Source: Halocafeteria seosinensis (Eukaryota > Sar > Bigyra > Bicosoecida). From it: a stretch of 64,000 nt of DNA. Of the stretch, positions 29,923 to 64,000 are shown piece after piece. The stretch lies in the NCBI GenBank assembly GCA_001687465.1, contig LVLI01000066.1, positions 1 to 64,000 of the forward strand, given 5' to 3'. The notes beneath the pieces were generated by a model, which saw nothing but the letters and a program-made list of their open reading frames with translations, was not told where the DNA came from and did not search any database. A program made the position numbers and the translations under genes. The number at the start of each line of letters is the position of its first letter. The first letter of the stretch is position 1.

Positions 29923-31743
29923 TCAGCAAATAATATCGTCCAAAGAGAAAATATCACTCATACCAGGTCGATGATGCGCGCTATATATATAGCCTCGGCA
30001 TCCCATGAACGTCTCCAAACTAGACAAATACCGAAAGCCAGAAGATGTAATTGTTGACTGACTGCATTGATGCATGAGGAGCCACGTCAACCTTGCCATG
30101 TGTTCAAAGGCAGAATCTGTAATTGTTGACTGGTTGCAGGATCCCATGTCGAGTGACTTCAAACTGGACAAGTGTTGAAAAGCAGCATCCGTTATTGTTT
30201 GTTGATTGCATTTACTCATATATAGTGACGTCAAATTGGACAAATATCGAAAAGCGGAATCCGTGATTTCAGGCTGGTTGCAACGCCCCATATCTAGTGA
30301 CTCCAAATTAGATAAATGTCCAAAAGCAGAATCCGTGATAGTTCTTTGATTGCATTGATTCATACCCAGCAATGTCAAAGTTGCGAAGTGCTCAAATGCA
30401 GAATCCGTAATAGTCGACTGGTTGCAGGATCCCATGTCGAGTGACTCCAAATTGGACAAATGTCGAAAAGCAGAGTCCGTGATAGTTCTTTGATTGCATT
30501 GATTCATGTCGAGCCACGTCAACCTTGCCATGTGTTCAAAGGCAGAATCTGTAATTGTTGACTGGTTGCAGGATTCCATGTCGAGTGACTCCAAATTGGA
30601 CAAGTGTTGAAAAGCAGCATCCGTTATTGTTTGTTGATTGCATTTACTCATATATAGTGACGTCAAATTGGACAAGTATCGAAAAGCGGAATCCGTGATT
30701 CCAGGCTGGTTACAACGCCCCATATCTAGTGACTCCAAATTAGATAAATGTCCAAAAGCAGAGTCCGTGATAGTTCTTTGATTGCATTGATTCATACCTA
30801 GCAATGTCAAAGTTGCGAAGTGCTCAAATGCAGAATCCGTAATAGTCGACTGGTTGCAGGATCCCATGTCGAGTGACTCCAAATTGGACAAATATCGAAA
30901 AGCAATATCTGTAATTGTTGACTGAGTACAGTCGTCTATGTTCAATGACGTTAAATTTGACAGGTATTGAAAGGAAGAATCTGTGATCGTCGACTGATCA
31001 CAGTAGCTCATCTCTAGTGATTTCAAACCGGACAGATGCTGAAAGGCCGCAGATGTAACCGTCGATTGATGACAACCAACCATCTTCAGTGTCGTCAAGT
31101 TGGACAAACGTTGAAACGCAAAATCCGTTATCGTAGACTGACGGCAGCGACTTATTTCCAGTGACTTTAAGTTCGGTAAGTATTGAAACGCCGCAGACGT
31201 AACCGTCGATTGATTGCAGTCTATCATGTTTAGTTTTGTCAAGTTAGACAAATGTTGAAACGCAAAATCCGTTATTGTGAATTGACGGCACCAGCTTATT
31301 TCCAGTGACCTTATGTTCTGCAGATGTTGAAAGGCAGAATTGGTCAGTACTCTAGTAAGACATCGCATGCCCACTGACTCCACCGCTGGAGGAAGACGGG
31401 CTATCACAGTGTCCCAGGTTTCCTCTGGACCAGCTACTTCTCTGTCGACTAGCTGGACATGACCGGAATAGTTTGGAAACAGTAAGGGACTAGTATGGCT
31501 ACGGAACTTCCAAGAACACTTTGGCCATGATAGTGAGTGTATCCACGCTTCCCCAGAATCACTTGCCTTCCCGGAGATGTCCAGGCGACCTCGTTTTCGC
31601 CTGTTGCAACGAGTATTGCCAGCGGTGCCAATTTTCCTTGAAGCTATTGTACGCCAGTAGTCTGCGACCGTTTTCTGAAGATCCCCGCCAACGTGGTGTT
31701 GCAACCATGTCTGCAGATAGACCTGGAGCACCAATGCCATCAT
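29923..31743 (-). CDS. Cysteine-type LRR protein (TITDxAF repeats)
   Basis: 606 residues in one frame, ATG at 31743. An N-terminal 130 residues without repeats (basic patch NRRKRGRLD; conserved WIHSLSWPKC) precedes about 18-19 LRRs of 24 residues. The unit runs roughly LxSLxMxxCNQSTITDSAF plus a HLSNL step, the layout of Cys-containing LRRs known from F-box/AMN1-type proteins. No F-box, signal peptide or membrane segment is obvious, and the function is unknown. The tail after the last repeat (GYIYSAHHRPGM) is unrelated. Six consecutive LRRs are duplicated almost perfectly in tandem. The same repeat type forms the C-terminal tail of the NACHT gene at 49205-50347. The stop codon is TGA. Confidence 0.8.
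   Translation of the reverse strand: MMALVLQVYLQTWLQHHVGGDLQKTVADYWRTIASRKIGTAGNTRCNRRKRGRLDISGKASDSGEAWIHSLSWPKCSWKFRSHTSPLLFPNYSGHVQLVDREVAGPEETWDTVIARLPPAVESVGMRCLTRVLTNSAFQHLQNIRSLEISWCRQFTITDFAFQHLSNLTKLNMIDCNQSTVTSAAFQYLPNLKSLEISRCRQSTITDFAFQRLSNLTTLKMVGCHQSTVTSAAFQHLSGLKSLEMSYCDQSTITDSSFQYLSNLTSLNIDDCTQSTITDIAFRYLSNLESLDMGSCNQSTITDSAFEHFATLTLLGMNQCNQRTITDSAFGHLSNLESLDMGRCNQPGITDSAFRYLSNLTSLYMSKCNQQTITDAAFQHLSNLESLDMESCNQSTITDSAFEHMARLTWLDMNQCNQRTITDSAFRHLSNLESLDMGSCNQSTITDSAFEHFATLTLLGMNQCNQRTITDSAFGHLSNLESLDMGRCNQPEITDSAFRYLSNLTSLYMSKCNQQTITDAAFQHLSSLKSLDMGSCNQSTITDSAFEHMARLTWLLMHQCSQSTITSSGFRYLSSLETFMGCRGYIYSAHHRPGMSDIFSLDDIIC
30081..30944 (-). repeat. 432-bp tandem duplication of six LRRs
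   Basis: Two adjacent 432-bp units, at about 30081-30512 and 30513-30944, are nearly identical; for example GCCACGTCAACCTTGCCATG recurs at 30081 and 30513, and CAATGTCAAAGTTGCGAAG recurs 432 bp apart. 432 bp equals six 24-residue LRRs, so the frame is kept. Confidence 0.9.
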
Positions 31744-35052: not shown

Positions 35053-35359
35053 CGCCCCCGAGTAAGCAGAACAAAGTGGCCTGCTGGTCACAAATGAGAA
35101 CGGACTGGAGATTTATGTCTGTCCTGACAGCACCAGCTACGAGATGAAGTTTCACATGATCCGTTGAAACCTGAAAAGTCCACATTCATGACGTATTCAA
35201 TCTTGGACCCACTGCACGATAGGCAATAAAGAAGAAATTCCGTGGCAGTCCTGAGGAGGAGGTGAATGGTGTTGGCTTCAATTGACGTCTCCGGATATGA
35301 GTAAGTGCGGGCATTTAACTATTACGCTTTCGACATCTGTGCAATTTGAAGGAGCGACG

Positions 35360-36090
35360 TATTTACAATTGCAACCAGTCCGGAATCACCGATTCCGCCT
35401 TGCAATACTTGTCAAATTTGACGTCATTGGATATTGATAGATGCTCCCGATTAGCAAGTACGGGGGCTGCCGTCCAATATATGTACCCTTGAAGTCGCTA
35501 CGCATCTGGAACTGCAACCAGTCCGGGATCACTAATTCCACCTTTTAATACTTAACTGATTCGACGTCACTGGAAACAGATGGATGCAAGCAATTAAAAA
35601 TTACTAGTGATGCCTTTCGGCACCTCTCCAACGTGGTTTTACTAAGCATGAGTAACTGCAACCAGTCAGAGATTACAGATTTTGCATTTCAACGCTTGGC
35701 AAATCTTAGATCGCTGGACATTTCTCAATGCAACCAGCGAACCATCACAGATTCTGCTTTCCGACATTTGTTTAATCTGAAGTTGCTAGCGATGCGGGAT
35801 TGCATCCAGTTGGAGATCACCGATTCTGCGTTCAAACACTTGTCAATTTTGATGTATCTGAGTATGAGTCGATGCAACCAACAAACAATTACAGCTTCTG
35901 GCTTTCGGCACTTGTCGAATTTGAGGTCACTGGAGATACGTGAATGCAATCAACGAACAATAACAGATTTCGTCTTTCTGCATTTGTCTAAGTTGGAACA
36001 GTTACGTATGCGATCTTGTAACCAGTCGGAGATCACGATATGCGTCGTTGCAATCAAGGAACTATAACAGATTCTGCCTTTCAACACTTG
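35360..36090 (+). pseudogene. LRR gene relic (TITDxAF family)
   Basis: A run of LRRs of the same kind as the gene at 29923-31743, on the opposite strand. The best open part is 35633-36067, about six units (for example NCNQSEITDFAFQRLANL, QCNQRTITDSAFRHL, RCNQQTITASGFRHLSNL). Units upstream, from about 35360 (NCNQSGITDSALQYLSNL), are separated by stops and frame changes, and downstream the repeat resumes out of frame at about 36040-36090. There is no N-terminal domain and no convincing start, so I take it as a fragment; expression of the 144-codon part cannot be excluded. Confidence 0.6.
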
Positions 36091-37065
36091 TAAAATCTGA
36101 TGGAACTACTTATTGTGGGTTGTGATCAACTATCTACGTGTATTTCTTTTCCCGCTGGCATTTCGATATACATATCGTTGTACCAGGTTAAAGGTGCCCT
36201 CGGCTCATTCCAATAGCAGAAGTGAGAGTGGAGTTTCCTGCACGACTTGCTCTTTAACACTTGTTTCAAAGGATTATAGGTCGGCAACAAGGAAAGAAGC
36301 GACCTGTGCAACGCTAACTTAATGTACCCATATATATCCTGTGTGTGTGTGTTAGCTCCAGCAACGGGGTGCATCTGTCGGGCTAGTTACTGGAAGGCTA
36401 CCGGTATTCGCTCCTCGGTGGCGTACGCCCCGTAACAGGCGCGTATGACGAATTTCTATCTTAAATTCGCACAACGTATTTGCTAGTCTACTCTAGTACG
36501 CTGGGTATTATACCCGGCCACAAAAATTCTGTGGCTGTAGATGTGCCGGACCACTGTACAACCTTGCGCTTCAGCTGTGAGTTGTTCCTGTCATGTGAGC
36601 TGAAACGTCCCATCATTGATCATTTGCTCTCTTACACCTGATAATGTGAAAAATTACCCTTACCGCACAACTCTGATGGGTTTTTGCTATCTACTGTTCG
36701 ACGGATTCTCGTCTTGTTCCACGCTAATCTGTGCTTGCGATAGGTACGTCGCACTTCGGAGTTGGGCTTCACACCGTGAGGCGCACAGTGAGGTCAGTCA
36801 CCGATTTACGGTGCGTGTTCGGTGTTACGTGGTTCACAGTAGACGTCTATAACAGGCGTTAATAGGTCATTTGTAGTACTAAGTCGGGTTTGCCAGGTGA
36901 CTGTAACTTTCCGCAGTACGTGTATTCTTCGTCAAGTGTAAAGTTTGAGACTTCGTGAATGGTGAGCTGCAACCTGAATACTGTACTTGGCGAACAACCC
37001 TCCACATCACCGCACCGCCTCTCACTTGCTATTGGTGAGGCGATAGCAGTAGCTTTTGTGGAAGA
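36091..37065. other. Intergenic, no gene seen
   Basis: I see no conserved coding sequence. A short GT run lies at about 36340-36351. The right end must carry the promoter of the secreted protein gene at 37066. Confidence 0.3.
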
Positions 37066-38424
37066 ATGAATATCAAGAGTCGTCCACCTTCAGTCTTCGC
37101 GAAACTGATACAGCTTATCGTTATTTTCATTGGGAAATGGAACACCTGTGCGTCGTCGAACCTGGTGGACTTCCGATACATCAAGTGGGACATCACAGGA
37201 ATCAGAGATGAAAGCGATCATGGCGATATTTGTGGGCTCTGTGGATTGTGTGTTCAGGCAAGCAAATTTCATCTGAAAAATGGAGACTCTCATCTGTCTA
37301 TGGGGAGTTTCGAGAACCCAGGTGGTTCCCAGTCCGAGTCGTTCGACGAAGATCCTAGCAATCTTGGTGGCTCCGGCAAATGGGTGGACCACAACTTCAT
37401 GGAGAACGAAAAAGGTTCTGTAATAATATCCGATGCTGGAGCGACGTCATCCTACGTCTTTGATCGATATGAATGGTTTACGGGAGGAGACTGCGAGGTA
37501 AGAGATCCTATCTCGTGGAAGCTCTACGGAAGCAACCACAAGGAAAGTTGGATTTTGCTCGATGAGAGAACCAATAAAGATGTAACTACTGCTAGGGAAG
37601 AGTCAGTTGGTGTATTCGATGTCAAACCACCGACTCCGACGCCTTCACCCACCCGTACACCGACTTCCACACGAACGGGGACCCCAAGCCACACGCCAAG
37701 TCACACTAGAACTCCGACCTCCAGTAACACGAGATCTCCAACTTCCAGTAGAAGCAGAACCCCTACTCCAAGCAGGACGGCTACTCCAAGCAACACGCCA
37801 AGCCGTACTCCGACCCACACGAGAACACCAACTTCCAGCAGGAGTGGAACTCCCACTCCGAGTAAGACGGCAAGTCCAAGCAATACGCCAAGTCGTACCT
37901 CGAGTAGCTCGACGACCCCGACAGCCAGTAGGAGTGGAACTCCCACCCCGAGCAAGACAGCAAGTCCAAGCAATACGCCAAGTCGTACCTCGAGTAGCTC
38001 GATGACCTCGACGGCCAGCAGGAGCGGTTCACGCACTCCGAGCACGACCATCACGCCAAGTACCACCCCAAGCCAAAGCCCGAGTAACACGAGGACTCCC
38101 ACTTCCAGCGGTAGCGCAACACCGACTTTGAGCGGGACCACAACTCCAGGTAGTACGCCGAGTCCGACGCCGAGCGGAACGAGAACGCCGACTAACAGTC
38201 GGAGCAGATCACCAACGAACACAGCAACAGTTAGTCCTACATCGAGTATTACTTCAAGTGTTACCCCTACTCACTCGGCAACCGTCAGCCATACTCCAAC
38301 TGGGACTCCATCGTCCAAAGAAACGGCCACGCATACTAGCACTCCTTCGCTTACACCTACATATGCGACATTGAAACGACTTGCCAAAGAGATTTCTGCT
38401 CAAAGAGCTAAAAGGAAGTACTAA
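37066..38424 (+). CDS. Secreted protein: discoidin-like domain plus Ser/Thr/Pro-rich tail
   Basis: 452 residues, single exon. A hydrophobic N-terminal stretch (AKLIQLIVIFIG, residues 12-23) followed by small residues suggests a signal peptide. Residues 32-187 look like a galactose-binding, F5/8C-like beta-sandwich: FRYIKWDITGIRD near the start, VQASKFHL, then RDPISWKLYGSN, SWILLDE and a closing GVFDV, the order seen in that fold. A CGLCGLC cluster lies near residue 60. From about 190 to 435 the chain is almost only Ser, Thr and Pro with scattered Arg, a mucin- or extensin-like segment likely O-glycosylated; it includes a 30-residue tandem duplication. The C-terminus is short and basic, with no membrane helix. 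An extracellular-matrix or cell-surface role is inferred, not shown. Confidence 0.7.
   Translation: MNIKSRPPSVFAKLIQLIVIFIGKWNTCASSNLVDFRYIKWDITGIRDESDHGDICGLCGLCVQASKFHLKNGDSHLSMGSFENPGGSQSESFDEDPSNLGGSGKWVDHNFMENEKGSVIISDAGATSSYVFDRYEWFTGGDCEVRDPISWKLYGSNHKESWILLDERTNKDVTTAREESVGVFDVKPPTPTPSPTRTPTSTRTGTPSHTPSHTRTPTSSNTRSPTSSRSRTPTPSRTATPSNTPSRTPTHTRTPTSSRSGTPTPSKTASPSNTPSRTSSSSTTPTASRSGTPTPSKTASPSNTPSRTSSSSMTSTASRSGSRTPSTTITPSTTPSQSPSNTRTPTSSGSATPTLSGTTTPGSTPSPTPSGTRTPTNSRSRSPTNTATVSPTSSITSSVTPTHSATVSHTPTGTPSSKETATHTSTPSLTPTYATLKRLAKEISAQRAKRKY
37832..38011 (+). repeat. 90-bp tandem repeat in the Ser/Thr/Pro tail
   Basis: Two consecutive 90-bp units (37832-37921, 37922-38011) are almost identical; GGAGTGGAACTCCCAC occurs at 37841 and again at 37931. 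The unit keeps the reading frame (30 residues). Shorter, more diverged versions lie on both sides. Confidence 0.8.
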
Positions 38425-47049: not shown

Positions 47050-48291
47050 ATGGCGGAAGTGGTCCAAGGGGTAGCGAAAAGTGACGTCAGACGCTCCCTG
47101 CATTGGGTGTTCAAAATCGGCAATCTCGGCCGTGCGTTGCGATTTTACAATGAAGTGTTCCACATGAGGGTTCTCCGGAGCGAAGAATTCGCGGAGGGGT
47201 GTGCCGTACGTAGCCGCATAGTTTGTGTGGGGAAAATTCAGCTTACCCTTGTTCTACGCGATGTGGAAGTCTGCAGGCTACCTGTAATGGCCCGTACGCC
47301 GGGCGCTGGAGCAAGACCATGGTGGGGTACGGCCCCGAGAAGGACAATTTCGCGTTCGAGTTGACCTACAACTACGGAGTGGACCACTACGAGAAGGCGG
47401 ATGATTTCCGGTTCATCGCCATTCGTTCGGACGAAACGGAGCAAGAATTCGCCCCGTTCCGACGAGAGTACCAAATTCGGAAAGCCAAAGAACTGGGGTA
47501 CAACGTAATCGAAAATGAGGAAGGAACTTTTATTGAAGGCCCGGATCAGTATTGCTACAAACTAGTGAATACTGCCAAGAAACAGTCACCCGAGGATGAG
47601 CATCCGACTTCCACCAGTGTGCATGAGCCTTGCTTATTCGTCTCGATCTATGTGTCAGATTTGGATAAGAGTCTGAAGTTTTGGAGAGATCGTAAGTGTA
47701 TTCCTGTATGCATAGTCTTAAAAGATATGTGATATGGTTCTGAGTTGCTCTGGTACAGATCTTGGTCTGCGGCAGTTAGATGATGTTGCTGGCAAGACTC
47801 CGGCCACCAAGAAGCATGGCGAAGGTGTAATGCTTGGGTACGATAAATCGCAAACCTTATTAGAGCTTGTTCCCCTTTACGGGGAAGATGGGGAACCAGT
47901 CAGCAAAATCGAGCATGGGAGTGCTTACGGTCGTATCGCCTTTGCTACTCGAAATGGTCCTCAGCCTATTTATGACGAACTGAAGAAGCTGGATTTCGCG
48001 GGTGGTGGAGTCATGAATGATCCTATCACCCTTCAGACTCCAGGGAAAGCCGATGTAGTTGTTACCATACTACAAGACCCAGATGGTTATGAGATTTGCT
48101 ACGTCAATGAGGATGGGTTTTACGACCTCAGTGCAACAAAACCTGCGGACGATTTCATTGACTGGGATTCTCGTGCTTACTACGGCGCCGATGGCAATCC
48201 TCCTCCGAGTGTGAGGCGAAAACAAGAAATCAAAGCACGGAGAGAGAGAGAAGCTCGGGAAAAAGAAGCTGCTGAACAAGAACGTGCATAA
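47050..48291 (+). CDS. GLOD4: Glyoxalase domain-containing protein 4
   Basis: A two-domain member of the vicinal-oxygen-chelate fold; GLOD4 proteins resemble glyoxalase I, but their substrate is not settled. Three exons, 47050-47205, 47277-47691 and 47759-48291 (donors GTACGT and GTAAGT), about 367 residues. The splices restore the family text: HWVFKIGNLGRALRFYNEVF, EEFAEGCA then ATCNGPYAGRWSKTMVGYGP, FELTYNYGV, and in domain 2 SDLDKSLKFWRDHLGLRQ, ELVPLYG, GRIAFAT and ILQDPDGYEICYV. The C-terminus carries about 25 Lys/Arg/Glu-rich residues not typical of animal GLOD4. ATG at 47050 starts directly before the first domain. Confidence 0.9.
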
Positions 48292-48572
48292 TTTGACGAA
48301 GGTGGGGCGAATACCAGTTTAAGTGAACAATACACTGTTGAATCGTTTATGTGTATCAAGGAACGCGTCGTGTCGAATTTTTTACGCGTTTATCTTCACA
48401 CTTGCGAGAGGGATGAATGGAGATTGCACCTAATTTCCTTTATATTTTGTCCGTTTCTTCATTTCACTCTTCACGTTAACATGACTCTTCTGGCAACATT
48501 TACATTTCCAGCAATTGTGCATCTGTGCCAAATCAAAACCAATATGCGGTATATATGCGGTATGTGTTATGC

Positions 48573-49071
48573 TCACCAGCATATAGGTGGCAAAAGCACA
48601 AACTGTGCTTCGTGCCAACACTGTTCGACAGGACGAATGATTTCCTCGTCGTTGGGTTCCTTACACCGTCTCCGAAAACGTTTCCGATACTCGAAGTTTA
48701 CAATACCTCGGTCTTCCACTAAGATGCTGCAGTTGTCCCAACTGGCTCTCGCCAGCATTTTCCACAACATCCTTTCAGCAGAAAGAAATGACGTTGTTGT
48801 CTTGAGCATTTTCTAGCAATCCATTGGATGTTAGCCGCAAGCCAAGGTTTTCGTGTTTAAACATTGCTAATGTGAGACTACCGGGGCTCTCCGTAGAACG
48901 TTGGCAATCGGGTCGTCGGAGGCCCCTGGTGAATTCTAAAGGACTTCGGCCACCCAATTCATCGGCAGCATGGATAGACATCCCAATTCTTTGCGCTCCT
49001 ATGAGAACTGTCCAAAGCCATGAACCATTGTTCGCGCAATGTAGTGGTGTCATATTGTTATGGTTCATTTA
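48573..49071 (-). pseudogene. Relic of a NACHT-family gene
   Basis: On the minus strand, pieces of the region between membrane helix and NACHT of the neighbouring genes appear in order but in different frames: WTVLIGAQRIGMSIHA (compare WTVLLGDENIQISLYA at 59819-62230), SLTLAMFKHENLGLRLTS (compare HLNLATFKRESWGLRLTS), then after a frame change EYRKRFRRRCKEPNDEEI (compare QYRERFRRWCNDSSDEAI). The first piece can also be read as an ankyrin-like TPLHCA unit, but the order and strand favour a NACHT relic. No P-loop remains. It lies just downstream of, and in the same orientation as, the gene at 49205-56326. Confidence 0.65.
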
Positions 49072-49204
49072 AGACACAAGTGATGTTCATTTGATAGAAA
49101 TTACCTGTACGAATTAATGCGTAGTTAAATGCGGACGATACAACTTTAAAAACGTACTGTACTGACGCTCTTCTAACTGACAAGCATAAGGAACAAGTAA
49201 ACGT

Positions 49205-50347
49205 TCACCACTTCCCGGTTATAGCCCGCTCAAATCGGAAAGAATCATATGAAAATTGATCGCATCCAAGCATCTCTAATTTTCGCAATTGAGATAGCTC
49301 AGAAATATGTTGGACGGCATCATCTGTAATGGTGGACTGATTGCACCCTTGCATATCCAATTCGTGTAAGTGGGATAGCTGACCAATATATCGGAAAGCA
49401 AAATTACCAAACGTGGTTTGATTGCATCCTGAAAAATCCAACGTTTGCAACTGGTATAATTCCCCAATATATTCAAACGCATCATCTGTGATAGTGGATT
49501 GATGACACCTGGCCATCCTCAACTTTTTCAAATGGTATAGGCGACCAATATGCTGGAATGCATTGTCTGTAATTGTAGTTTGATTGCACCCTCCCATAAA
49601 CAGTGTTTGTAATTGGGATAGTTGAGCAATGTGTTCAAAAGCTTCATCTGTAATGGTGGATTGACAACACTCTTCCATACACAATTCTTGCAATTGTGAT
49701 AGTTCAGCAATATGTCGGAAAGCATCATCTGTAATACTGGACTGATTGCACTTTTCAAGGTTCAATTTCTGCAATCGGGATAATTGCCCGATATGCCGAA
49801 ACGCATCATCAGTAATGGTGGATTGAGTGCACCATCTCATATCCAATCTTTGCAGTTGGGTCAATTTACCAATATGCCGAAAAGCATCATCAGTAACGGT
49901 GGAGCGGTTGCATAAAGATATATCCAATATTTCAATCCTAACCCCCAGGTTATTGGCATTACCATTCTCTGGTATCGAGCTGGATGCATCCACGTTGTCG
50001 CTAGACTGATGGTGACGATGATGATCAGTCTCACCTTCCACTCTGGCTGCTTGGGAGATACTAGAGACTGTTGAGTATGAAGGCAGTGCTTTGAATAGAT
50101 TGTCTACAATAGTCTTCGCATTCACCTCAACCATATGGACTCTATTCTGGAGTTGTGGATGAACAATATGTTCAGTTAGCTCACAAGGAAGTGAAACGAG
50201 GTTATCCAGACGAGCTATCCACTTCGGTTGGATTCTTAGCATATGCTGCCCGTTTATGGTCGTTTTCGTAGGCATGACAAAGTTGATACATTCCGGAGAG
50301 TCCACTACACAAGCCGCATGAAGAGGTAAGAGTCCCGATAAAGAAGT
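49205..50347 (-). CDS. Ankyrin-LRR tail in frame with the NACHT gene after a TGA
   Basis: 380 codons that continue the frame of the NACHT gene directly after its TGA (50350-50348). The first residues, SGLLPLHAACVVDSPE, complete an ankyrin repeat begun before the stop. A linker follows (about 100 residues, with HHRHHQSS), then seven to eight LRRs of 23-24 residues, such as WCTQSTITDDAFRHIGQL and GCNQTTITDNAFQHIG. They are the same Cys-type unit as in the solitary LRR gene, with HIGQLSQLQ in place of HLSNLTSL. No ATG lies at the start; the first Met is at 50275. Read alone it could be an LRR protein. I think it is the C-terminus of the NACHT gene, cut off by a nonsense codon or reached by readthrough. 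The stop codon is TGA. Confidence 0.7.
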   Translation of the reverse strand, partial: TSLSGLLPLHAACVVDSPECINFVMPTKTTINGQHMLRIQPKWIARLDNLVSLPCELTEHIVHPQLQNRVHMVEVNAKTIVDNLFKALPSYSTVSSISQAARVEGETDHHRHHQSSDNVDASSSIPENGNANNLGVRIEILDISLCNRSTVTDDAFRHIGKLTQLQRLDMRWCTQSTITDDAFRHIGQLSRLQKLNLEKCNQSSITDDAFRHIAELSQLQELCMEECCQSTITDEAFEHIAQLSQLQTLFMGGCNQTTITDNAFQHIGRLYHLKKLRMARCHQSTITDDAFEYIGELYQLQTLDFSGCNQTTFGNFAFRYIGQLSHLHELDMQGCNQSTITDDAVQHISELSQLRKLEMLGCDQFSYDSFRFERAITGKW

Positions 50348-53300
50348 TCAAGAAACATCGTCTTCATCAGATGCTAGCTGCTTTAGGCAATTTACATTTC
50401 CGCTCAAGGCTGCTGCAAACACAACAGTCTCACCTTCGTCCGAGACTTCGCTCGCACTAGCTTCATAGTCTCTTAACAAAGATGCTACTAATTCGGCATG
50501 GCCATTCAAAGCCGCCAAAAACAATAAAGAATAATGTTCCTGTTGCGTGAACAATCGAAGGGGCTGCACATGCAGTTTGCCTACCAAGCTTTCAAGAACA
50601 TGCTGCGAGCCGTGCTTTGCAGCTAGGATTATGTGCTCTTCGCTCAATCCAACAAACTCGCGAGAAAAACTCTCCGAACAGCAGGACGCAATTGTTTCCA
50701 AGCAACGTGCTGCATTTGCTGTGACCGCATCATTGATAGTTAGGTTGGCCACGTAAGGCGTGGCAACGATTGCCTGCTTCAGTTCCGTCTCACTGAGTAA
50801 TGTTTTCACACAGCATCCACTGTCTTTTTCTAAACAAAACCGGAAGCAATGTAAAATAAACTCCTGCATATTCAATTCGTTCGCTTTACAAGTCATATCC
50901 TTCCATTGCTCTACATGGAGCAATTCGGCTAGACAGTTTCCACTGTCTTGCTCTAAACATTCTTGGAAACAGTAACTGACTAACCCTTCGAGAGAGTATC
51001 CCCTATGCTCACATAATAAACTCCTCCATTGAGTTGCACTCAACAATTCTAAGAGGCAGTTTCCGCTGTCTTTTCTTAAGCATAAGTGAGCGCAATAAGT
51101 GATGAACTCCTCAAGAGAACATCTCTCCTCTTCGCAGAGTAGACGTCTCCATTGAGTTATACTCAGTAATTCTACAAGGCACTTCCCGCCGTTTTTCTTT
51201 AAACATAGCTGAAAGCAGTGAGTAATGAACTCGTCTAGGGAATAACCCTGGTGTTCACACAGCAGGCATCTCCATTGAGTTGTGTTCAGCAGTTCAACGA
51301 AGCACTTCCCACGATCTTGCTCTAGGCATAGGTGGAAGCAGTAAGAAATGAGCCCTTCCTCAGATGCGTACCCTATGTTCCGACAAAGAAACGTTCTCCA
51401 TTTCTCTGTGCTCAACAAATGAGCGAATCCTTTGCCCTTATCTTCATCTATACACCACTGAAAGCAAATCTGAATGAACTCCGCTTCACTGGATTCCACC
51501 CGGTGACAAAGCCATTGTCTCCATTCGTCTACATTAAGCAATTCCTCAAGACACTTCGCCCTATCTACATCTATCGACAGCTGGAAGCAATGAAAGACGA
51601 AGTCGTCCATATTGCACCCCTCTCGTTGACACAACAGATTGGCCCATTGCTTTGTACTGAGTAAAGCCCCAAGACAATGCCCGCTATCACCCTCCAGGCA
51701 CATTTGGAAACAAAGGTTGACAAAATCCTCCCTGCTCAGCTGCCCATCCTGATAGAGCGGTTCTGTACATGGCGTCTGAGAAAGTAAATATTCGAAAATT
51801 GCACCTCGATCAAATCGAATGGATTCCTGGATTAACTCTGCATCTAAGTCCTCTTCGCTGCAAAGGCGTTTCACGCACTTTAGCTGGCCCGTTCGCACTG
51901 CTGCTCTCAGAGGCCCGAGAGTCAGGCATTTATCATCCCGGAGGGGCACCTTCGTTTGCTCCAGAGCGTCCACGCAGTCCATGTGCCCTAAACTGATGGC
52001 TAAAACATAAGGTGTGAGTTCCGTCTCTTCCTCAACGGACAGCTCCTGGTCCAGCCAGCATCCTATCTCGTATTCTTGTGCCGGACAGACTTCCTCGAAG
52101 ACTAACTTTATACATTGATAAGGTAGCACCTCATCGATAGCTGCATTGCACGTATACAATGGTAGTATTGTGTTTGGCCTGTTCAATGCAACAGCAGCCC
52201 ATACAGGGGAGTAACAGGTTTTTTCACCCTTCCTTGAAAACTGCAAGCTAACATCTTTTCCGCTATCGTTGAGCATATACAGGTGGTCCAAATTTTCGTC
52301 CTGCAGCGCTTGCAATAATTCTTCAAAGCAATTCAAATCGCATTTAGCGAAATTTACGCTCTCTCTTGGATCCAATGACACCCCCAGAAGCTGTGCTGTT
52401 GCTTCTCCAATATCGCCGTCACACCAAATCAAGAGGGACGACAGGGAGTAGCTGCAATTGTGTTGCCCGGCAACTTCCATGGATTGTCGCTTGATATGTG
52501 CACATGTTTCTGACGGTTTATCGAAAGCCAGTAACAACTGCAGACACGATGCACAACCATCTCGCGATGCAATGTATATAGCTGACCAGGCAAGGTCACG
52601 CATCAAATGAAAATTAGTTTCTAGGGTATTCAAAAGAGTTCGACAACAGTCAAAGCGTTTTCCTGTGACAGCTCCAGTAAGCGCAATTTGGTGCAGCGAC
52701 ACTTGGTTCACGGACCGTTCGGATTCATCTTTGCTCGTCTCTAAAATCCAGCGAATAAGACGGTAGCTACCGACTTCTCCCGCCGAGAAAAGCAGACGCT
52801 TAACTTCGGGTGTACTAGACGCGATTGCACTCAACGATAACTGTTTCAAACGGCTAGGCTCTACTTCCAATAGGACTTGAACAAACCTGATACGCCCATT
52901 CAGCTCCGTAACAAGTGAGCTGTATAAACAGATCAGAAGACGTGTGGTCTCCTCTACCGATTGCTCTTCACTGAAGGCGCTAACGAAGAACTCCAGAAAT
53001 CTGTCTCCAAAGCGTAAGCCCTCATTGATCACGTCTTCTATCTGGGAAGTACCAATAGTGTTAAATCGTCGACGAGCAAGGAAGTACTCCCAGTACGACC
53101 GGTGAATAAACTCGTAAGTTTGTTTCTCATCTCCTGTGGGAGAGACTACTTGCATTAATCCGACACCCTCGAAAAACTCACTCGCTTCGCGTATTGCTTT
53201 CAACGGTCCTCGAAAGTCTTTGCGATGATTCTCAAATGCTTGTCGTAACACCTTCAGCGGAACCTGTTTATCCGAACAGACGTCATCTCTCTCTAGGTGA

Positions 53301-56300
53301 GAAGCTACCTCCTCCAGGATCGTCAAAGCAACCTCATGGGGATCATTATCTGCACGGACTGTGTGTGACCTCCACCATTTCTCCAATAGATGGTCCACTG
53401 TTCGACTATAGATCGGAGTCACACGGACGTCTTCTGCCGTGGATTCAAAGAAGCTACCTCCGCTCTTCACATACGCAAAACAAATTCCTTCAAGAAGAGT
53501 TGGATTAGCGCTTAAAGCATTCAGTCGATCATTGAGTCGGAAAGACAATTGTAGAGTCCGACAGAGCCTCGAATAATCACTTCTATCAGAATAACATTCC
53601 AAAGCGTAGTGCTCAATGAAACTCTTGCGAGCCTCAGAAGTAAGCCCCTCCACCTCTACAAAATAGCCGATATACTTATTGACCAACGGAATCCCATTGC
53701 GATGACTTGCTGTATGACTTGAGAATCGCGATGATACGAAAACGAAGGCTTCCATCTGTCGAAGTACTGAGAAAATTCTCCCACCGGCAGCTCCAGGTTC
53801 GAATGGATTATTTCGTACTTCATCACATCCATCTAGGAGAAAAAGAACACTGGGTCGTTTGTCGCGCAAGTGTTGCACAATTCTTATGGCTTCATCCGTG
53901 GTGATATTTCGTGCGGCAACATTGTCATCGAAGGTTTCCTTAAGATTCACGAAGCTCTTGGAGAGGAGCATCCCCAAACAAGTCTCTCCGTCAGCGTCTG
54001 GGTAATGTTTTTCCACATGTACCAGATGATACAGTTGAAGATATATTACCCAACTGAAACTATCTTTCAACACGCGACCTATTTCGTTTTCCTCCGAATT
54101 CCCAAGAGACCACGACTGGGCAAAATGCTTGAAGAGTGTGGTTTTCCCAACGCCTGCTTGCCCTTCGAAGAGGATCCACTTCCTCCTGGAATTTGAGAGC
54201 GCAAATAAATCTCTCGCTTCCACCTCGCGCTTTCTTCCCGACGCTCCAGAGTGTTTGTCCCGCAGTGTCAATTTCTGATAGCACCTATTCAATTTTGGTC
54301 GCTTGGTTAGGTCCACAGCTTCATCTTCACGGTGTCGGAAAAGTCGATGGAGTCTCCAACTTCGATAAAGCATATACAAATTATCTCGCTTATACAATGG
54401 GGGCAATTTGTTCCAGTTAAATTTCACTGTCGAAGTTGTTCGCGAAAACGTAAGTAAACGATCGTGTATAATTCCCGCATGAACTCGTCTACTACACTCA
54501 ATTTGAAACTTGAACGGGACAGAAACGGTGTCGTCGGCGCTAGAGTAGAGAGAGGTTTCCGTGGGACGCAGACTGTGCTGTTCTGGGCGTCGAAGTAACT
54601 GTCCCATGGAAACTCGGTGGGCAGCGGTAGAACAGAATTTCACCGGACTGTCATCACACAATACAACAAAAATATCTAACATTGGGACAACATCCCTCCA
54701 AAATTGTTGTTCGTCTACCGACCATATTGGATTCCTGAAGAAATTGCTTTCTACAGATTCTATGACGGGGAAACTCAGCTTTCCCTCAGGAGCGAGAACT
54801 TCGCGAAGAATTTCTTCATCACTGGGATTGTTACACCACCGACGTAAGCGCTCGCGATATTCCGCCTGCTGGAAGACACGCTGGTCCTTCGAAGGAGCGG
54901 ACAGTTGGCAGTACTGCAAATTGTCGCTCAATTGTTTCATGTAGAATCGGTTTCGCAATCCAATAACAGCCTTCAAATAGAACTCAACAGTTCCACCCTC
55001 AAGACCATAGCCTTCCACTAACGCACTCGAAGTGAGCCGGAGACCGTAGTTTTCCCTTTTAAGTGTCTCTAAGTTGAGATGTCGTCGGCCGCGCAGGGCT
55101 CGCCGGCGATCAGGCTCCCCGTTTCGCTGGGCGGTAAATTCGACTGGGCAATCGTTTTCCGATTGACAGGCATGCAGAGAAATTTGAATACTCTCCTCGC
55201 CTATTAGTTCGGTCCACGGATTTACTAGTATATTTCCTGTAGAATACCATGGATTATTCGCAGGCTCATTTACTATATCACTCCAGTGCATGTCTACGGA
55301 AATAAAATCCGGGTCAATCTGAGCTTCAGCATAGTTCAGAGACAAAGACAAGGGAGGGTCTCTCAGTCTAACAGTATTTGCCGTATAAAATGGTGACGAG
55401 GCTATCTTCTTGCACCACTTGCGGAAAGTATCACGCTTTAAATTTAGGGATGCACTTGGCTCCAGCTCTTTCGGCGATATCACTTTACCCAAGCAAAACA
55501 CGCTTCGGCACCAGCCCTTCCTCTTAATCACAAACTGCTGCCGATCTTGCAGCCTTGTTTCGTGACCCACTTCATGTATTTCTGGTGGATCACCGCGGCC
55601 ATTCTCCAATGCCGAAGCGAACCAAAGTGCAAAGCGGCTTAGGTCAGCCGTTATACCCTCCTCTCTTAACCAAAGGCAAAGATGGCGGGCTTTATGCCCC
55701 CATTTACGAAAATAAGAAAAGACAGACACGTAAGAACATTCTTGTTCGGACCAGATAACTAGAAGTTGAGAATTGGCTTCAATATACTGACGCAGCAATT
55801 CTGGACGGTAATCACTGGGAGAGTGCAAAGAATTCGGGTCCGAATGAGCATACGCAGTGGAATCTAAGTCCAGTTTTCTCGCTACGCGATACGAGAAAGG
55901 GTCCTCTTTGCGAAACTGATAGGTTACACAGGTTTTCCATAACCAGCGTCCAAGAATTCCTAAGAAGCCGCTTCCTCCTATCATACCCAACACCCAGTTC
56001 GCCCAATTCGGCAAGGATGATGTTTCAATCAGATGCCTTCTATGCACTGAAGCAAATCCCTCTGGCACAGCCTTCTCCATAGGATGAGAAACAGAATGGC
56101 GTAGAAATTGCGACTGTGTCCTCCAGGAACCCGAGGACTGCTCTTCCAGTTGAGGGATATCCGGTGGTGTCGTATCCTCCGTCCCACCGGCCGCAACGGA
56201 TATGACCACCGCAACAAGCACGATAATAATTAATATCAACTCAGGTACTAATGCTTCGCTTCTCATCCTCTCTGCCGGCTTTGTTGTTATATATGCTGAC

Positions 56301-56326
56301 CGTGGGAAAACGATGGTTGTCCTCAT
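50348..56326 (-). CDS. Membrane-anchored NACHT-ankyrin protein, NLR-like
   Basis: A STAND-type NTPase of about 1992 residues from ATG 56326; ATG 56263 would give a cleaner signal anchor. Numbered from the open-frame start at 56341: hydrophobic LILIIIVLVAVVISVAA (35-51), an ectodomain of about 60 residues, a second membrane segment WVLGMIGGSGFLGILGRW (116-133), a conserved region of about 550 residues with no family I recognise, the P-loop EGQAGVGKTTLFKHFAQSW (about 725-740), Walker B VLFLLDGCDEV (about 835), a helical region, eight 42-residue Cys-rich repeats (about 1540-1855), then ankyrin repeats (HAELVASLL, AALSGNVNCLKQL). It ends at TGA 50350-50348, inside an ankyrin unit that continues after the stop. 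NACHT proteins oligomerise on ligand sensing in known immune and incompatibility systems; the role here is inferred only. A paralog starts divergently at 59819. Confidence 0.85.
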   Translation of the reverse strand: MRTTIVFPRSAYITTKPAERMRSEALVPELILIIIVLVAVVISVAAGGTEDTTPPDIPQLEEQSSGSWRTQSQFLRHSVSHPMEKAVPEGFASVHRRHLIETSSLPNWANWVLGMIGGSGFLGILGRWLWKTCVTYQFRKEDPFSYRVARKLDLDSTAYAHSDPNSLHSPSDYRPELLRQYIEANSQLLVIWSEQECSYVSVFSYFRKWGHKARHLCLWLREEGITADLSRFALWFASALENGRGDPPEIHEVGHETRLQDRQQFVIKRKGWCRSVFCLGKVISPKELEPSASLNLKRDTFRKWCKKIASSPFYTANTVRLRDPPLSLSLNYAEAQIDPDFISVDMHWSDIVNEPANNPWYSTGNILVNPWTELIGEESIQISLHACQSENDCPVEFTAQRNGEPDRRRALRGRRHLNLETLKRENYGLRLTSSALVEGYGLEGGTVEFYLKAVIGLRNRFYMKQLSDNLQYCQLSAPSKDQRVFQQAEYRERLRRWCNNPSDEEILREVLAPEGKLSFPVIESVESNFFRNPIWSVDEQQFWRDVVPMLDIFVVLCDDSPVKFCSTAAHRVSMGQLLRRPEQHSLRPTETSLYSSADDTVSVPFKFQIECSRRVHAGIIHDRLLTFSRTTSTVKFNWNKLPPLYKRDNLYMLYRSWRLHRLFRHREDEAVDLTKRPKLNRCYQKLTLRDKHSGASGRKREVEARDLFALSNSRRKWILFEGQAGVGKTTLFKHFAQSWSLGNSEENEIGRVLKDSFSWVIYLQLYHLVHVEKHYPDADGETCLGMLLSKSFVNLKETFDDNVAARNITTDEAIRIVQHLRDKRPSVLFLLDGCDEVRNNPFEPGAAGGRIFSVLRQMEAFVFVSSRFSSHTASHRNGIPLVNKYIGYFVEVEGLTSEARKSFIEHYALECYSDRSDYSRLCRTLQLSFRLNDRLNALSANPTLLEGICFAYVKSGGSFFESTAEDVRVTPIYSRTVDHLLEKWWRSHTVRADNDPHEVALTILEEVASHLERDDVCSDKQVPLKVLRQAFENHRKDFRGPLKAIREASEFFEGVGLMQVVSPTGDEKQTYEFIHRSYWEYFLARRRFNTIGTSQIEDVINEGLRFGDRFLEFFVSAFSEEQSVEETTRLLICLYSSLVTELNGRIRFVQVLLEVEPSRLKQLSLSAIASSTPEVKRLLFSAGEVGSYRLIRWILETSKDESERSVNQVSLHQIALTGAVTGKRFDCCRTLLNTLETNFHLMRDLAWSAIYIASRDGCASCLQLLLAFDKPSETCAHIKRQSMEVAGQHNCSYSLSSLLIWCDGDIGEATAQLLGVSLDPRESVNFAKCDLNCFEELLQALQDENLDHLYMLNDSGKDVSLQFSRKGEKTCYSPVWAAVALNRPNTILPLYTCNAAIDEVLPYQCIKLVFEEVCPAQEYEIGCWLDQELSVEEETELTPYVLAISLGHMDCVDALEQTKVPLRDDKCLTLGPLRAAVRTGQLKCVKRLCSEEDLDAELIQESIRFDRGAIFEYLLSQTPCTEPLYQDGQLSREDFVNLCFQMCLEGDSGHCLGALLSTKQWANLLCQREGCNMDDFVFHCFQLSIDVDRAKCLEELLNVDEWRQWLCHRVESSEAEFIQICFQWCIDEDKGKGFAHLLSTEKWRTFLCRNIGYASEEGLISYCFHLCLEQDRGKCFVELLNTTQWRCLLCEHQGYSLDEFITHCFQLCLKKNGGKCLVELLSITQWRRLLCEEERCSLEEFITYCAHLCLRKDSGNCLLELLSATQWRSLLCEHRGYSLEGLVSYCFQECLEQDSGNCLAELLHVEQWKDMTCKANELNMQEFILHCFRFCLEKDSGCCVKTLLSETELKQAIVATPYVANLTINDAVTANAARCLETIASCCSESFSREFVGLSEEHIILAAKHGSQHVLESLVGKLHVQPLRLFTQQEHYSLLFLAALNGHAELVASLLRDYEASASEVSDEGETVVFAAALSGNVNCLKQLASDEDDVS
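50775..51725 (-). repeat. Eight tandem 42-residue Cys-rich repeats
   Basis: Within the NACHT protein, units follow the pattern HCFQLCLEKDSGxCLxELLS then TQWRxLLCExxGYSLEEFI, each about 42 residues. Cys recur at fixed places (helix start, after Leu, before Leu and in LLC). The first half resembles an ankyrin helix pair (GxxxCLxxLL) without the TPLH turn, so these may be diverged ankyrin repeats. Units 4-6 are the most alike, which suggests recent expansion. Confidence 0.8.
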
Positions 56327-59550: not shown

Positions 59551-59818
59551 GTACAAGCTGTACAAGTACAGTATAGTTCTCGCTCGCGTGGTGTATTTCT
59601 CCAGGGAAAGCTCTCCGAAGGCCACGCCAGGAGACAGTGGAACTGGGTCTCCCCCACAACACATACACTCAAGTCTTTTCATTCCACGCGAAGAAACCAA
59701 GGGGAAGGGGCCCCCATCCCGCTTCGTGGAGCCTGTATAGGCGACTGGAGCCACCAAACAAGAAGCTAAAGAATCAACATTCTCGAGAGGGAGAACAGTT
59801 ACGTTTCTAAGCATTGTA

Positions 59819-62230
59819 ATGGTCACTGATAGCACCGAGAGTCGATTAAGAATGGAGAAGAGAGTATCCTCGGTATACAAATCGATGCTGGTTTGCATCG
59901 TAGCTTTGCTTGTGGCAAGTGGTATCTCCTCAGCCATGGCCACGGCAGCAGAAGACGAGGATATCCAGGAAGAGCAGCTATTCATGAGTTCCTACTCCCG
60001 ACCACCAACTTATTTTCTTCGACATTCCATTCCTCCTCGAGAGGAGAAGAAGCAACAACATGCGCCAGTGCATAGACGAAATCTGATTGAAACGTCAGCT
60101 CTGCCAACTTGGGCGAACTGGCTGCTTGGCGCCCTCGGCGGAAGTGGCTCTGTCGGTTTGGTAATCTTGTGGATATGGAAATCCTGTTTAAAGTATCAGT
60201 TTCGGAAAGAAGATCCTTTCTCATATCGTGTGGCCACGGAACTGGATTTGGACTCGACCACTTATGCTCCTTCCAATCCGGATGCCCAGCGCTCTCCCAA
60301 TGAATACCGTCCAGATCTGTTAGTCCAATATCTTCGAGCCAATCTACAATTGTTGGTGATTTGGTCCAGAAAAGAGGGTTCAAGTATATCTTTGTTTGAT
60401 TATTTTCGTAAATATGGAGATGACGCGCGTCATCTTTGTCTCTGTTTCGGGAAGAAGGGCACAACGGCTGATCTAAGCCACTTCGCATCTGCGTTCGCGA
60501 CTGCATTGAAGAATGGTCAAGGTGACCCACTTGAGATGCATGAAGCAAGTACGGACACAAGGCTTCAAGGACGGCAGCAGTTTGTCCTGAAACGGAAAGG
60601 GTGCTGTCGAAGGATGTTTTGCTTGGGTAAACTCATTTCACCGGAAGAACTACAGCCGCGGGCATCTCCAACGTTGAAGCGTGACGTTTTCCTCCGATTT
60701 TGCAAACTGATAGCCACATCGCCCGATCACTCGGTAAGTACAGCTAAATTGAGGGATCCTCCTTTGTCAATATATCTAGACTGTACTGACACTGAAATGG
60801 ACCCGGATTTTATTCCTGTGGACATTGCGTGGAGGGGTATGAACGACCTCTCCAAGAATCCGTGGGAAAACATGGGAAGTCCCTTACTGATCAATCCGTG
60901 GACCGTCCTGCTAGGTGACGAAAACATTCAAATCTCTTTGTATGCCTACCATTCGGAGGAAAACTGCCCCATTGAATTTGCTACCAAGAGGAACGGGCAA
61001 CCTGATAGGCAACGTGTCACTTCCGGCCAAAGTCATCTTAACTTGGCGACATTTAAGAGAGAAAGCTGGGGTCTGCGGCTCACTTCGAGTGCACTAGTCG
61101 AGAGACATGGTATTGAGAATGGAAACATCGTCTTCCATCTGAAGGCCACAATTCAGAATCGCGAAGAATTCCAGCTTAAGCAACTAAGCGAAAATTTATC
61201 GTACTGCACACTACCGGCTCCGTCAATGGATCGACTTGTCTTCAAGCAGGCGCAATATCGTGAACGCTTTCGACGCTGGTGTAACGATTCCAGTGATGAA
61301 GCAATTCTTCAGGCAATCCACGCTCCTCGATTAAAGTTGAATATCCCTACCATCGAGTCTGTAAATAGCAATCTCTTAACGGATCCAATAGGGTGGGCAG
61401 ATAAGAATGAAAAGCTGTTCTGGACCGGTATCGTTCCATTGTCAGACATGTTTGTTCTGTTTTGTGACGATAGTCCAGTTGAATTCTGCGATGCAAGCAC
61501 CAATCGAGTTCCTATAGAGCGACTAGTTCAATGCCCGGAGGAGTACAGTTTGCGTCCTACCGAGTCCTCTTTATACACCGTCGACAGCGTATCTGCTCCG
61601 TTCAAGATTCAGCTTGAATGCAATGACCAAGTTCATTCCGAAATAAGACAACGGAAGTCATTCACGGTTGGTCAGAGCAGCGTTAACGTAATATTTGACT
61701 GGAGTAAGCTACCTCCTCTATATAAGTGGGATGAGCTTACTCTGCTCTATCGAAGTTGGAGACTTCACCGTCTCTTTGGGCAGCAGACAGATGAGGCTGC
61801 ACACCCAGTCAAGCGACCGAAATTGAATAAATGCTATCAAAAGTTGACACTACGAGACAAGTACTCTAACAAAACGTCAGGGGAAGGGATCCAGACGAAG
61901 AATTTATTTTCCCTGTCAAATCCCAACAGGAAGTGGATTCTCTTCGAAGGAGAAGCAGGAGTTGGGAAGACCACCTTATTCAAGCATTTTGCTCAGTCAT
62001 GGTCTCTCGAAGAGACCGAGGGTAATGAGATAGGTGAGGTGATGAAGGATAAGTTCACGTGGGTACTATATCTTCAAATGCATCATTTGATACATGTAGA
62101 AAATGAGTACGCGAAAGCTGATGGGGATACATGCTTGGGGATTCTTCTCTCCAAGAGCTTCATGAAGCTTAAGGAAACCTTTAGCGACGAGGTTGCTGCG
62201 TGCGATATTACCGCGCAGCAAGCAGCGTAA
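59819..62230 (+). CDS. NACHT paralog, 5' part up to a frameshift
   Basis: 803 codons from ATG 59819, closely related to the gene at 50348-56326. A signal-like helix SMLVCIVALLVASGISSAMA (22-41), an ectodomain ending in VHRRNLIETSALP, a membrane segment WLLGALGGSGSVGLVILWIW (101-120) and the shared YQFRKEDPFSYRVA follow in order. The conserved middle region is complete, and the P-loop EGEAGVGKTTLFKHFAQSW lies near residue 715. The frame then stops at TAA 62228-62230 after DITAQQAA, where the paralog continues to Walker B. The product as read would have Walker A but no Walker B, ankyrin or LRR part, so it is probably not an active NTPase. It is transcribed away from the other NACHT gene, with about 3.5 kb between their starts. 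Confidence 0.8.
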   Translation: MVTDSTESRLRMEKRVSSVYKSMLVCIVALLVASGISSAMATAAEDEDIQEEQLFMSSYSRPPTYFLRHSIPPREEKKQQHAPVHRRNLIETSALPTWANWLLGALGGSGSVGLVILWIWKSCLKYQFRKEDPFSYRVATELDLDSTTYAPSNPDAQRSPNEYRPDLLVQYLRANLQLLVIWSRKEGSSISLFDYFRKYGDDARHLCLCFGKKGTTADLSHFASAFATALKNGQGDPLEMHEASTDTRLQGRQQFVLKRKGCCRRMFCLGKLISPEELQPRASPTLKRDVFLRFCKLIATSPDHSVSTAKLRDPPLSIYLDCTDTEMDPDFIPVDIAWRGMNDLSKNPWENMGSPLLINPWTVLLGDENIQISLYAYHSEENCPIEFATKRNGQPDRQRVTSGQSHLNLATFKRESWGLRLTSSALVERHGIENGNIVFHLKATIQNREEFQLKQLSENLSYCTLPAPSMDRLVFKQAQYRERFRRWCNDSSDEAILQAIHAPRLKLNIPTIESVNSNLLTDPIGWADKNEKLFWTGIVPLSDMFVLFCDDSPVEFCDASTNRVPIERLVQCPEEYSLRPTESSLYTVDSVSAPFKIQLECNDQVHSEIRQRKSFTVGQSSVNVIFDWSKLPPLYKWDELTLLYRSWRLHRLFGQQTDEAAHPVKRPKLNKCYQKLTLRDKYSNKTSGEGIQTKNLFSLSNPNRKWILFEGEAGVGKTTLFKHFAQSWSLEETEGNEIGEVMKDKFTWVLYLQMHHLIHVENEYAKADGDTCLGILLSKSFMKLKETFSDEVAACDITAQQAA

Positions 62231-64000
62231 ACAGAGTGATATTCTTTTCCTCCTGGATGGGTGCGACGAAGTAAAAACTAATCCATTTGAACTTGGTTCA
62301 CTCGGTGGGAGAATGTTTTCCGTTCTTCGCCAAATGGGAGTGTTCGTTTTTGTATCGTCGCGATTCTCGAGTCATACGGCGAGTCGTCAGGATGGTATCC
62401 CCTTAGTTAACAGGTACTTTAGCTCTTTTGTAGTGGTGGAGGGACTCACACCGGAGGCTCGCAAACTTTTTGTGGAACAATATGCTCAAGAACGTTATCC
62501 AGACAGCAGAGGTAACCAACTGCATCTTTCCCAGACACTGCAGCTCTCCTTCCGGCTCAACGATCGGCTTGACTATCTCGGTGCTAATCCGACGCTCCTG
62601 GAAGCGATATGTTTTGTATATGTAGAGAGCTCAGGAAGCTTCTTTGAATCTACAAAGAAGGACATTCGCATCACGCCAATTTACGCTCGGACTGTGAAAC
62701 ATTTGGTGCACAAATGGTCGACGATATCATGCTCGTCTTCACCCGACGATGATCCCCTTGACGTGTCACTAAAAATGTTAGAGGATGTAGCCTTACGACT
62801 GGACGAAGATGGAGAAAATCTTCATGAGGAGAACGTTTCCACTGATAAAGACGTGTCTCTACATCGTTTGCAAAAGATCTTTGCAAAGTATCGCGAGGAA
62901 TTTCGGGGACCACTAAAGTCTGTAGAGCGGGTGACCGAGTTTTTCGAGCGTGTTGGTCTGTTGAGGATTGTGTGCCGCACGGGTGACGCAGATCAAACCT
63001 ATGAATTCATTCATCGTTCTTACTGGGAATATTTTGTGGCTCTAGGGGAATTTAGAAAGAGTAAGTCTCGCCCCGCCAGATACCTTATTCAATCTGAGTC
63101 TCGACTTTGGGATCGGGTTTTCGACTTCTACGTCAGCATATTTAGCGAACAGCAAAACATTAACACTATTACTGATTTGCTTCATAGCTTACATGGTTTG
63201 CTATGTGGGGAGCATGTATCCGGTTGTACACCAGATCAAGGCCCCCATCGGTTCACCGAACTTTTACTTGAAGTGCATCCAGATAAATTGGAAAAAGTAT
63301 CGCTTCACATGATAATGTCGGCTTCAGACGAAATACGATCGCTTTTGTTTTATGCAGGTGAAATAGGCAGTTTTCGTCTTGTTAGCTGGATCCTAGCTCA
63401 GACTGCTCAGCGTAACTATCAATGTGGCGAGAAGGAAACCTATAGCGAGCAAAGAGCACTTGTCCAAGTTGCACTCGCGGGATCTTCGAAAGGAGGACGA
63501 TCTGCTTGTTGCCGAAGGATACTGGATACCATGGATACTGATTTTTATCGGGTTGAGGAAACTTCGTGGTCAGCTATTTACATAGCATCGCGAGAAGCTA
63601 GTGCCCCGGGAGCTGCCGCATGTTTGCAGTTGCTACTGGCTGAAGCTAAGCTGTCCGAAACCCCGGAGTTTATTAAACAGGAATCTATGAAAATCGCAGG
63701 AGAACGGAGTCACGAACGTTGCGTCGCCCTGTTCTTAATCTGGTGTGACGGTGTTGTAGGTGAAGTCGCTGCACAAGTATTGGGTGACGCCTGGATGTCG
63801 ATGGCCCCACAAAAAAGAATAAATGCCGCAAAGAGTGAACTTAATTGTTTTGAAGAGTTAGTACAAGCGTTGCAACGGGATGATGTGGAACGACTTTACG
63901 CACTCAATGATGGCGGAAAGGATGTAAGCTTACAGTTCTCTCGAAAGGGACATGAGAATTGCTATTCTCCCGTATGGATTGCTGTGATATTAGACAGACC
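62226..64000 (+). pseudogene. NACHT paralog, continuation in the next frame, runs off the window
   Basis: From 62226 the +1 frame stays open to the window end (about 590 codons, no stop). It carries Walker B ILFLLDGCDEV, then SVLRQMGVFVFVSSRFSSHT, LQLSFRLNDRLDYLGANPT, TYEFIHRSYWEYFVA and NDGGKDVSLQFSRKG, all matching the other NACHT gene in order. Compared by eye with that gene, about 23 bp are missing at the junction (39 nt of paralog sequence against 16 here), enough to shift the frame. No intron with GT-AG ends of usable size fits. The long clean frame downstream means the lesion is recent, or the sequence has an error there. The ankyrin and LRR parts would lie beyond the window. Confidence 0.75.

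Follow-up and report, generated by a model that had tools for sequence, protein, structure and literature searches.

In animal NLRs such as NLRC4 and NLRP3, a NACHT NTPase is followed by C-terminal LRRs, and the N-terminal domain that defines them is a CARD, PYD, BIR or Death domain. Fungi possess NLR-like STAND proteins in which NACHT is followed by diversifying repeat units (NACHT-ANK, NACHT-WD and NACHT-TPR), and the relevant passages of PMC4986451 describe fungal NACHT proteins as carrying ankyrin, WD or TPR repeats and no LRR. According to a report cited in the same passages, several genomes, both holozoan and non-holozoan, encode NACHT proteins with repeats other than LRR. Outside animals, passages of PMC6040629 describe choanoflagellate proteins that combine NACHT and LRR with neither Death nor CARD domains.

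The locus compared here with these systems lies in a stretch of 64,000 nucleotides of Halocafeteria seosinensis (the window), which corresponds to positions 1-64000 of contig C38 (122,302 bases) in a genome of 30,592,128 bases and 605 contigs that was searched as a whole. The genome is eukaryotic, as the window encodes a cytoplasmic dynein-2 heavy chain (14725-28083) by one frame of 4452 codons. The window also holds a secreted-looking protein with a long Ser/Thr/Pro repeat (TPSNTPSRTPT...) and no Pfam family (37066-38424). In the genome, TIM was found as a lone, unfused frame of 259 codons. A thraustochytrid host was rejected, as PfaA-type matches were limited to two weak ones below the cut-off, and so was a photosynthetic one, as the light-harvesting family Chloroa_b-bind gave no match, while one control genome was matched. 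A search for elicitins came back empty here and in the controls alike.

On the minus strand of the window, a frame of 1992 codons runs without internal stop from an ATG at 56326 to a TGA at 50350-50348. This head (50351-56326) comprises one or more N-terminal membrane segments, an unrecognised N-terminal domain, NACHT, helical repeats and ankyrin repeats. It was confirmed, as the earlier note had stated, that a 380-codon frame in the same phase opens right after this TGA; this tail (50347-49208) is stop-free and is closed by a second TGA at 49207-49205. In the other two forward frames, the tail region is interrupted by 14 and 30 stops, so that its openness in this phase is no chance effect. 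Pfam recognised NACHT (2.9e-12) and Ank_2 (1.6e-19) in the head, the best Ank_2 stretch (50360-50629, residues 1905-1994) lying immediately upstream of the stop, and LRR_14 (5.7e-15) plus other LRR families in the tail.

A search of the genome with the head, in which all 11 of 11 candidates were scored, revealed four copies, designated A (the locus above) to D, and one relic. Copy B is placed on the plus strand at C38:59741-66485, the window containing its part from 59741 to 64000, and is followed on the same contig by copy C (C38:68390-76066), while copy D is found on another contig (C78:12885-19684). Copy C has an intact frame of 2558 codons, 2481 from the first ATG, in which membrane segments, NACHT, ankyrin and LRR are joined; in the strict sense of NACHT and LRR in one frame it is an NLR, and copy A is not because of its TGA. 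In copy B, a deletion of 23 nt near 62220-62235, upstream of Walker B, breaks the frame within NACHT and leaves both sides open; copy D has lost 19 nt elsewhere in NACHT and with them the Walker B core. From these breaks to the LRR end, B and D are open for 1439 and 1440 codons, respectively. An intron at either break was considered and rejected, as comparison with the other copies shows a small deletion in each case. The relic, located behind the tail of A (48615-49164, minus strand), is a decayed remnant of another family copy and corresponds to about residues 397-536 of the 2018-codon frame of A.

The comparison with these copies bears directly on the junction interrupted in A. The residues on either side of the TGA (50348-50350) form the two sides of one continuous ankyrin repeat: the beginning of the tail (TSLSGLLPLHAAC...) aligns with a repeat that runs stop-free in B, C and D, and the stretch SGLLPLHAACVVDSPE (50291-50338) is the remainder of the interrupted unit, a few residues beside the gap having been misplaced by the aligner in both rows of A. 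The suggestion that the first residues of the tail complete an ankyrin repeat begun before the stop was thus borne out. All three other copies read from ankyrin through the linker into LRR in an open frame, none of them has a stop at the junction, and Pfam also detected ankyrin and LRR in one frame in each of them; in copy D, Ank_2 (26.6 bits) fell just under its cut-off of 27.3 and Ank_4 (23.4 bits) exceeded its own of 22.7. As the junction is open in each of the three other copies, the family norm is the fused form and the TGA in A is derived. This also supports the proposal of the earlier note that A encodes, or until recently encoded, a single membrane-anchored NACHT-ankyrin-LRR protein with about 2370 residues. 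Copy A therefore shows an in-frame stop absent from its relatives, which is a mark of a pseudogene. Altogether, copy A belongs to a NACHT-ankyrin-LRR family of four copies, predicted to encode membrane-anchored NLR-like receptors, and the TGA that cuts off its LRR tail is probably a recent nonsense mutation.

The tail could alternatively be a separate gene that lies downstream in phase by chance, since this genome has many NACHT-less LRR stretches of that repeat class, such as the LRR-only frame at 29923-31743. However, the tail starts inside an ankyrin repeat, and among the listed matches to the tail (108 of 221 candidates scored) its linker is confined to the four copies of the family, where it always follows ankyrin. 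The earlier note had itself named an LRR part that is always an independent gene as what would speak against its reading, and in B, C and D the LRR part is fused. A chance neighbour is accordingly a barely credible explanation. The same tail search returned at least 159 matches in the genome, with 108 of 221 candidates scored, several of which contain stops. Within the window, this class of repeat was observed in LRR genes or gene fragments at 29923-31743, 35328-36135 and 1913-2503, and the LRR match at 35459-36073 holds two TAA codons.

It was also considered whether an unusual splice removes the TGA and joins head and tail in frame. Fifteen frame-keeping GT-AG pairs of 30-220 nt span the stop; a 129-nt candidate with a GTGAGA donor, for instance, would cost the protein about one ankyrin repeat. 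By the author's reading, the glyoxalase-like frames at 47050-48291 of the window also seem to contain short introns. However, every one of the 15 pairs would delete conserved sequence that is kept open in the three sister copies, and A has no extra length at the junction compared with B and C, so that such a splice is highly improbable.

A sequencing or assembly error, or a single allele, would leave the gene intact in the organism, and a one-base difference would suffice to create the TGA, the 7.2-kb frame being otherwise clean. Against this stand the 19- and 23-nt deletions in two other copies, which are untypical of base errors and make defects in this family plausible biology. Moreover, no second allele of the head or the tail was present among the assembly matches, so that nothing speaks for a mixed site at the TGA. 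An artefact or a single allele is therefore an unlikely, though not negligible, source of the stop.

The earlier note had left it undecided whether the LRR tail was lost to a nonsense codon or is made by stop-codon readthrough, in which case the TGA would set the amount of LRR-bearing receptor. The tail stays open and keeps the core residues of its repeats, a conservation partly built in by the repeat pattern, as readthrough would require; however, a recent mutation predicts the integrity of the tail equally. A CTA following the stop constitutes a strong readthrough context, and the stop of A is followed by ACT (TGA ACT). A recoded gene would be recognised by a SECIS element or by a stop conserved in relatives, and neither was found here. 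An Rfam scan of the window gave no match at gathering level, and in 48300-50500 the single match at E up to 5 was not a SECIS; selenocysteine recoding was rejected for want of a SECIS match. An alternative code was likewise rejected: TGA ends both the tail and the LRR gene at 29923-31743, and in the dynein-2 frame each of the 77 Trp codons is TGG and TGA does not occur in frame, which together identify TGA as an ordinary stop. Out-of-frame deletions, such as those of two other copies, would stay unmasked by stop readthrough. A nonsense mutation is favoured because B, C and D lack the stop, the tail itself terminates at a TGA, the search for a SECIS was negative and such deletions occur in two copies; nothing favours readthrough, which is very unlikely.

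If the TGA in copy A is a nonsense mutation, its age can be approached from the damage around it. Copies A, B and D each contain a single frame-breaking lesion in 6.8-7.2 kb, at different places, the count taking in frame-breaking damage only. A copy that had lost its function long ago should have gathered further stops and indels beyond the single lesion observed. Under assumptions of neutrality, transition bias and an indel rate chosen by the author, divergence after the lesion has a 95% upper bound of 0.02-0.04 in the tail of A when indels are counted and of 0.06 when only stops are; the corresponding bounds for B or D as a whole are 0.0035-0.007 and 0.010-0.011. For comparison, dS between copies ranges from about 0.9 to saturation in most comparisons, the exception being B and C, with 0.47 in the ankyrin end and 0.33 in the tail linker. 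The lesions in A, B and D are thus likely to be young, given the dS between most copy pairs. The absence of a further stop or frame break from the tail would be predicted likewise by readthrough or by continued selection. In contrast, the relic beside A accumulated a frame change and several in-frame stops in about 550 bases, which is indicative of old decay. Which two copies are most alike depends on the part of the gene: A and B are closest in the N-terminal domain, A and C after Walker B, by a small margin over the other two pairs, and B and C in the tail. This shift suggests that exchange between copies may have taken place.

The N-terminal part of the family shows features of a membrane protein. 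Hydrophobic stretches were sought by 19-residue hydropathy with a cut of 1.5, and one near the N-terminus exceeds the cut in all four copies; in A (56195-56251, minus strand) it reaches a maximum of 3.09, with a comparable stretch in B, C and D, and is predicted to be signal-peptide-like or membrane-spanning. A second stretch, a possible membrane anchor, lies 65-110 residues further and is above the cut in B, C and D and below it in A (55937-55993, minus strand), and copy A has one more borderline stretch (1.51) within its ankyrin part. Membrane anchoring of the family proteins is therefore a prediction from hydropathy. Between the two stretches, all four copies share an FLR motif (SQFLRHS, TYFLRHS, SQFLRHT and TLFLRQS) and an RR-type motif (HRRHL, HRRNL, RRRNL and TRRQL).

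These segments are followed by an N-terminal domain of about 530-560 residues, conserved among copies A to D and 556 residues long in A (54257-55924, minus strand), without Pfam or convincing PDB relatives. At E up to 0.1, the head of A matched only ankyrin and P-loop NTPase models in Pfam, with no CARD, PYD, BIR or Death domain; the domains of C and D had no Pfam family at 0.01; and a PDB sequence search returned no convincing relative, with one match at E 0.69. The predicted structure of the N-terminal half had a mean pLDDT of 31.3 and was left out of the analysis. The NACHT domain of A (53606-54175, minus strand) scored 47.2 bits against a Pfam cut-off of 26.7 and includes both Walker A (GQAGVGKTT, 54163-54137) and Walker B (VLFLLDGCDE, 53848-53819), which places copy A among STAND NTPases of the NACHT class. 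In copy C, NACHT scored 47.9 bits in one frame with its neighbouring domains, while in B and D, both lesioned around Walker B, it fell below the cut-off.

The LRR array of A (49208-49939, minus strand) is formed by 27-residue repeats with a conserved Cys and variable exposed strand positions, as found by Pfam, the repeat pattern and a structural model, and the same spacing occurs in B, in C and mostly in D. The author's repeat pattern gave strict matches for seven repeats in A, five each in B and C, and at least 14 in D. The seven to eight repeats counted in the earlier note agree with the strict pattern in A at the lower figure, and the AlphaFold model of the tail contains nine beta strands spaced by about 27 residues. 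This model has a mean pLDDT of 59.8, with residues 1-139 below 50 and most of the LRR part between 60 and 95. The best LRR match of the tail was FBXL2, both by sequence and by fold.

Over 31 repeats of A to D, the most variable positions were 8, 6, 9 and 4, and positions 4-8 constitute the beta strand of the model, with strand limits read by the author. The summed entropy of positions 4, 6 and 8 was reached by two of 2024 three-position sets, their own included. The conservation of the repeat core is partly built in because the pattern itself demands certain core residues. At positions 4, 6, 8 and 9, which are less bound by the pattern and were chosen as exposed after a first look at the repeat data, pairwise pN and pS within arrays were 0.61 and 0.54 in A, 0.57 and 0.37 in B, 0.58 and 0.35 in C, and 0.55 and 0.84 in D, so that pN exceeds pS in A, B and C and not in D. 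In LRR-only arrays, the values were 0.65 and 0.65 on contig C57 and 0.57 and 0.50 at 29923-31743. We infer that such a pattern of variable strand residues is what a ligand-reading surface would look like.

A possible mode of action of the intact protein would involve the NACHT NTPase as a STAND nucleotide switch under the membrane and the ankyrin-LRR solenoid as the part that reads a ligand through its variable LRR-strand residues. If the LRR tail is missing, the product of copy A would no longer sense this ligand, or would be inactive, or reduced to an LRR-less NACHT-ankyrin layout. A precedent for such a shortened protein is provided by a NACHT-ankyrin protein of the same genome (C136:117618-120992), which likewise carries NACHT (5.2e-12), Ank_2 (1e-18) and, by eye, a hydrophobic N-terminal stretch, but differs from the family in having no LRR family in the Pfam scan and in being absent from the matches to the head. 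A second NACHT frame was noted on that contig (109796-110317), and a frame on another (C324:51501-60000) joins a NACHT-like NTPase to WD-like repeats by the author's reading, which is another architecture. At the population level, birth and death of tandem receptor genes, accompanied by exchange, would often give rise to null or truncated alleles. It is a tentative and rather doubtful extension that the LRR-less form (A) and the NACHT-broken forms (B and D) of these receptors with hypervariable LRR strands would represent a standing on/off repertoire of fresh loss alleles in the population, as in allorecognition or costly immune receptors, rather than plain decay.

Set against the described systems, the family resembles animal NLRs in the order of NACHT and C-terminal LRR, and NLRC4 and NLRP3 chains were among the Foldseek matches of the tail model, with modest TM-scores of 0.33-0.44 by the query. 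It differs from them in an N-terminal domain that is not CARD, PYD or Death by Pfam, in its predicted membrane anchor, and in the ankyrin and helical repeat region between NACHT and LRR. With the fungal proteins it shares a NACHT domain followed by ankyrin, but here an LRR array follows the ankyrin repeats in the same frame, whereas the passages of PMC4986451 describe the fungal set without LRR. The choanoflagellate proteins, likened to the family by their description and not by sequence, also pair NACHT with LRR outside animals, whereas the passages of PMC6040629 mention neither ankyrin repeats nor a membrane anchor. No relatives of the family were found in the collections of viral and prokaryotic contigs (viral_contigs and genome_contigs). 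Among titles and abstract beginnings in the literature, none described a protist protein that is membrane-anchored and combines NACHT, ankyrin and LRR, although this is only weakly indicative of absence. On the fungal and choanoflagellate precedents, the family is placed among NLR-like STAND proteins, its membrane topology and NLR-like function being predicted from sequence. A putative role as immune or allorecognition receptor would entail ligand-triggered oligomerisation and signalling.

The TGA of copy A is probably an ordinary nonsense event in an NLR-like STAND family, and more notable than the stop is the NACHT-ankyrin-LRR architecture with its unrecognised N-terminal domain. The family unites NACHT, ankyrin and LRR in one frame beneath a predicted membrane anchor, where the precedents, as described in the passages cited above, pair NACHT with ankyrin, TPR or WD repeats or with LRR. 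Loss of the tail in A would remove the part predicted to read a ligand in what is likely a receptor of immune type. Because it comprises an intact copy, others with a single fresh-looking defect and an old relic, the family makes the birth and death of NLR-like receptors traceable in a small eukaryotic genome.
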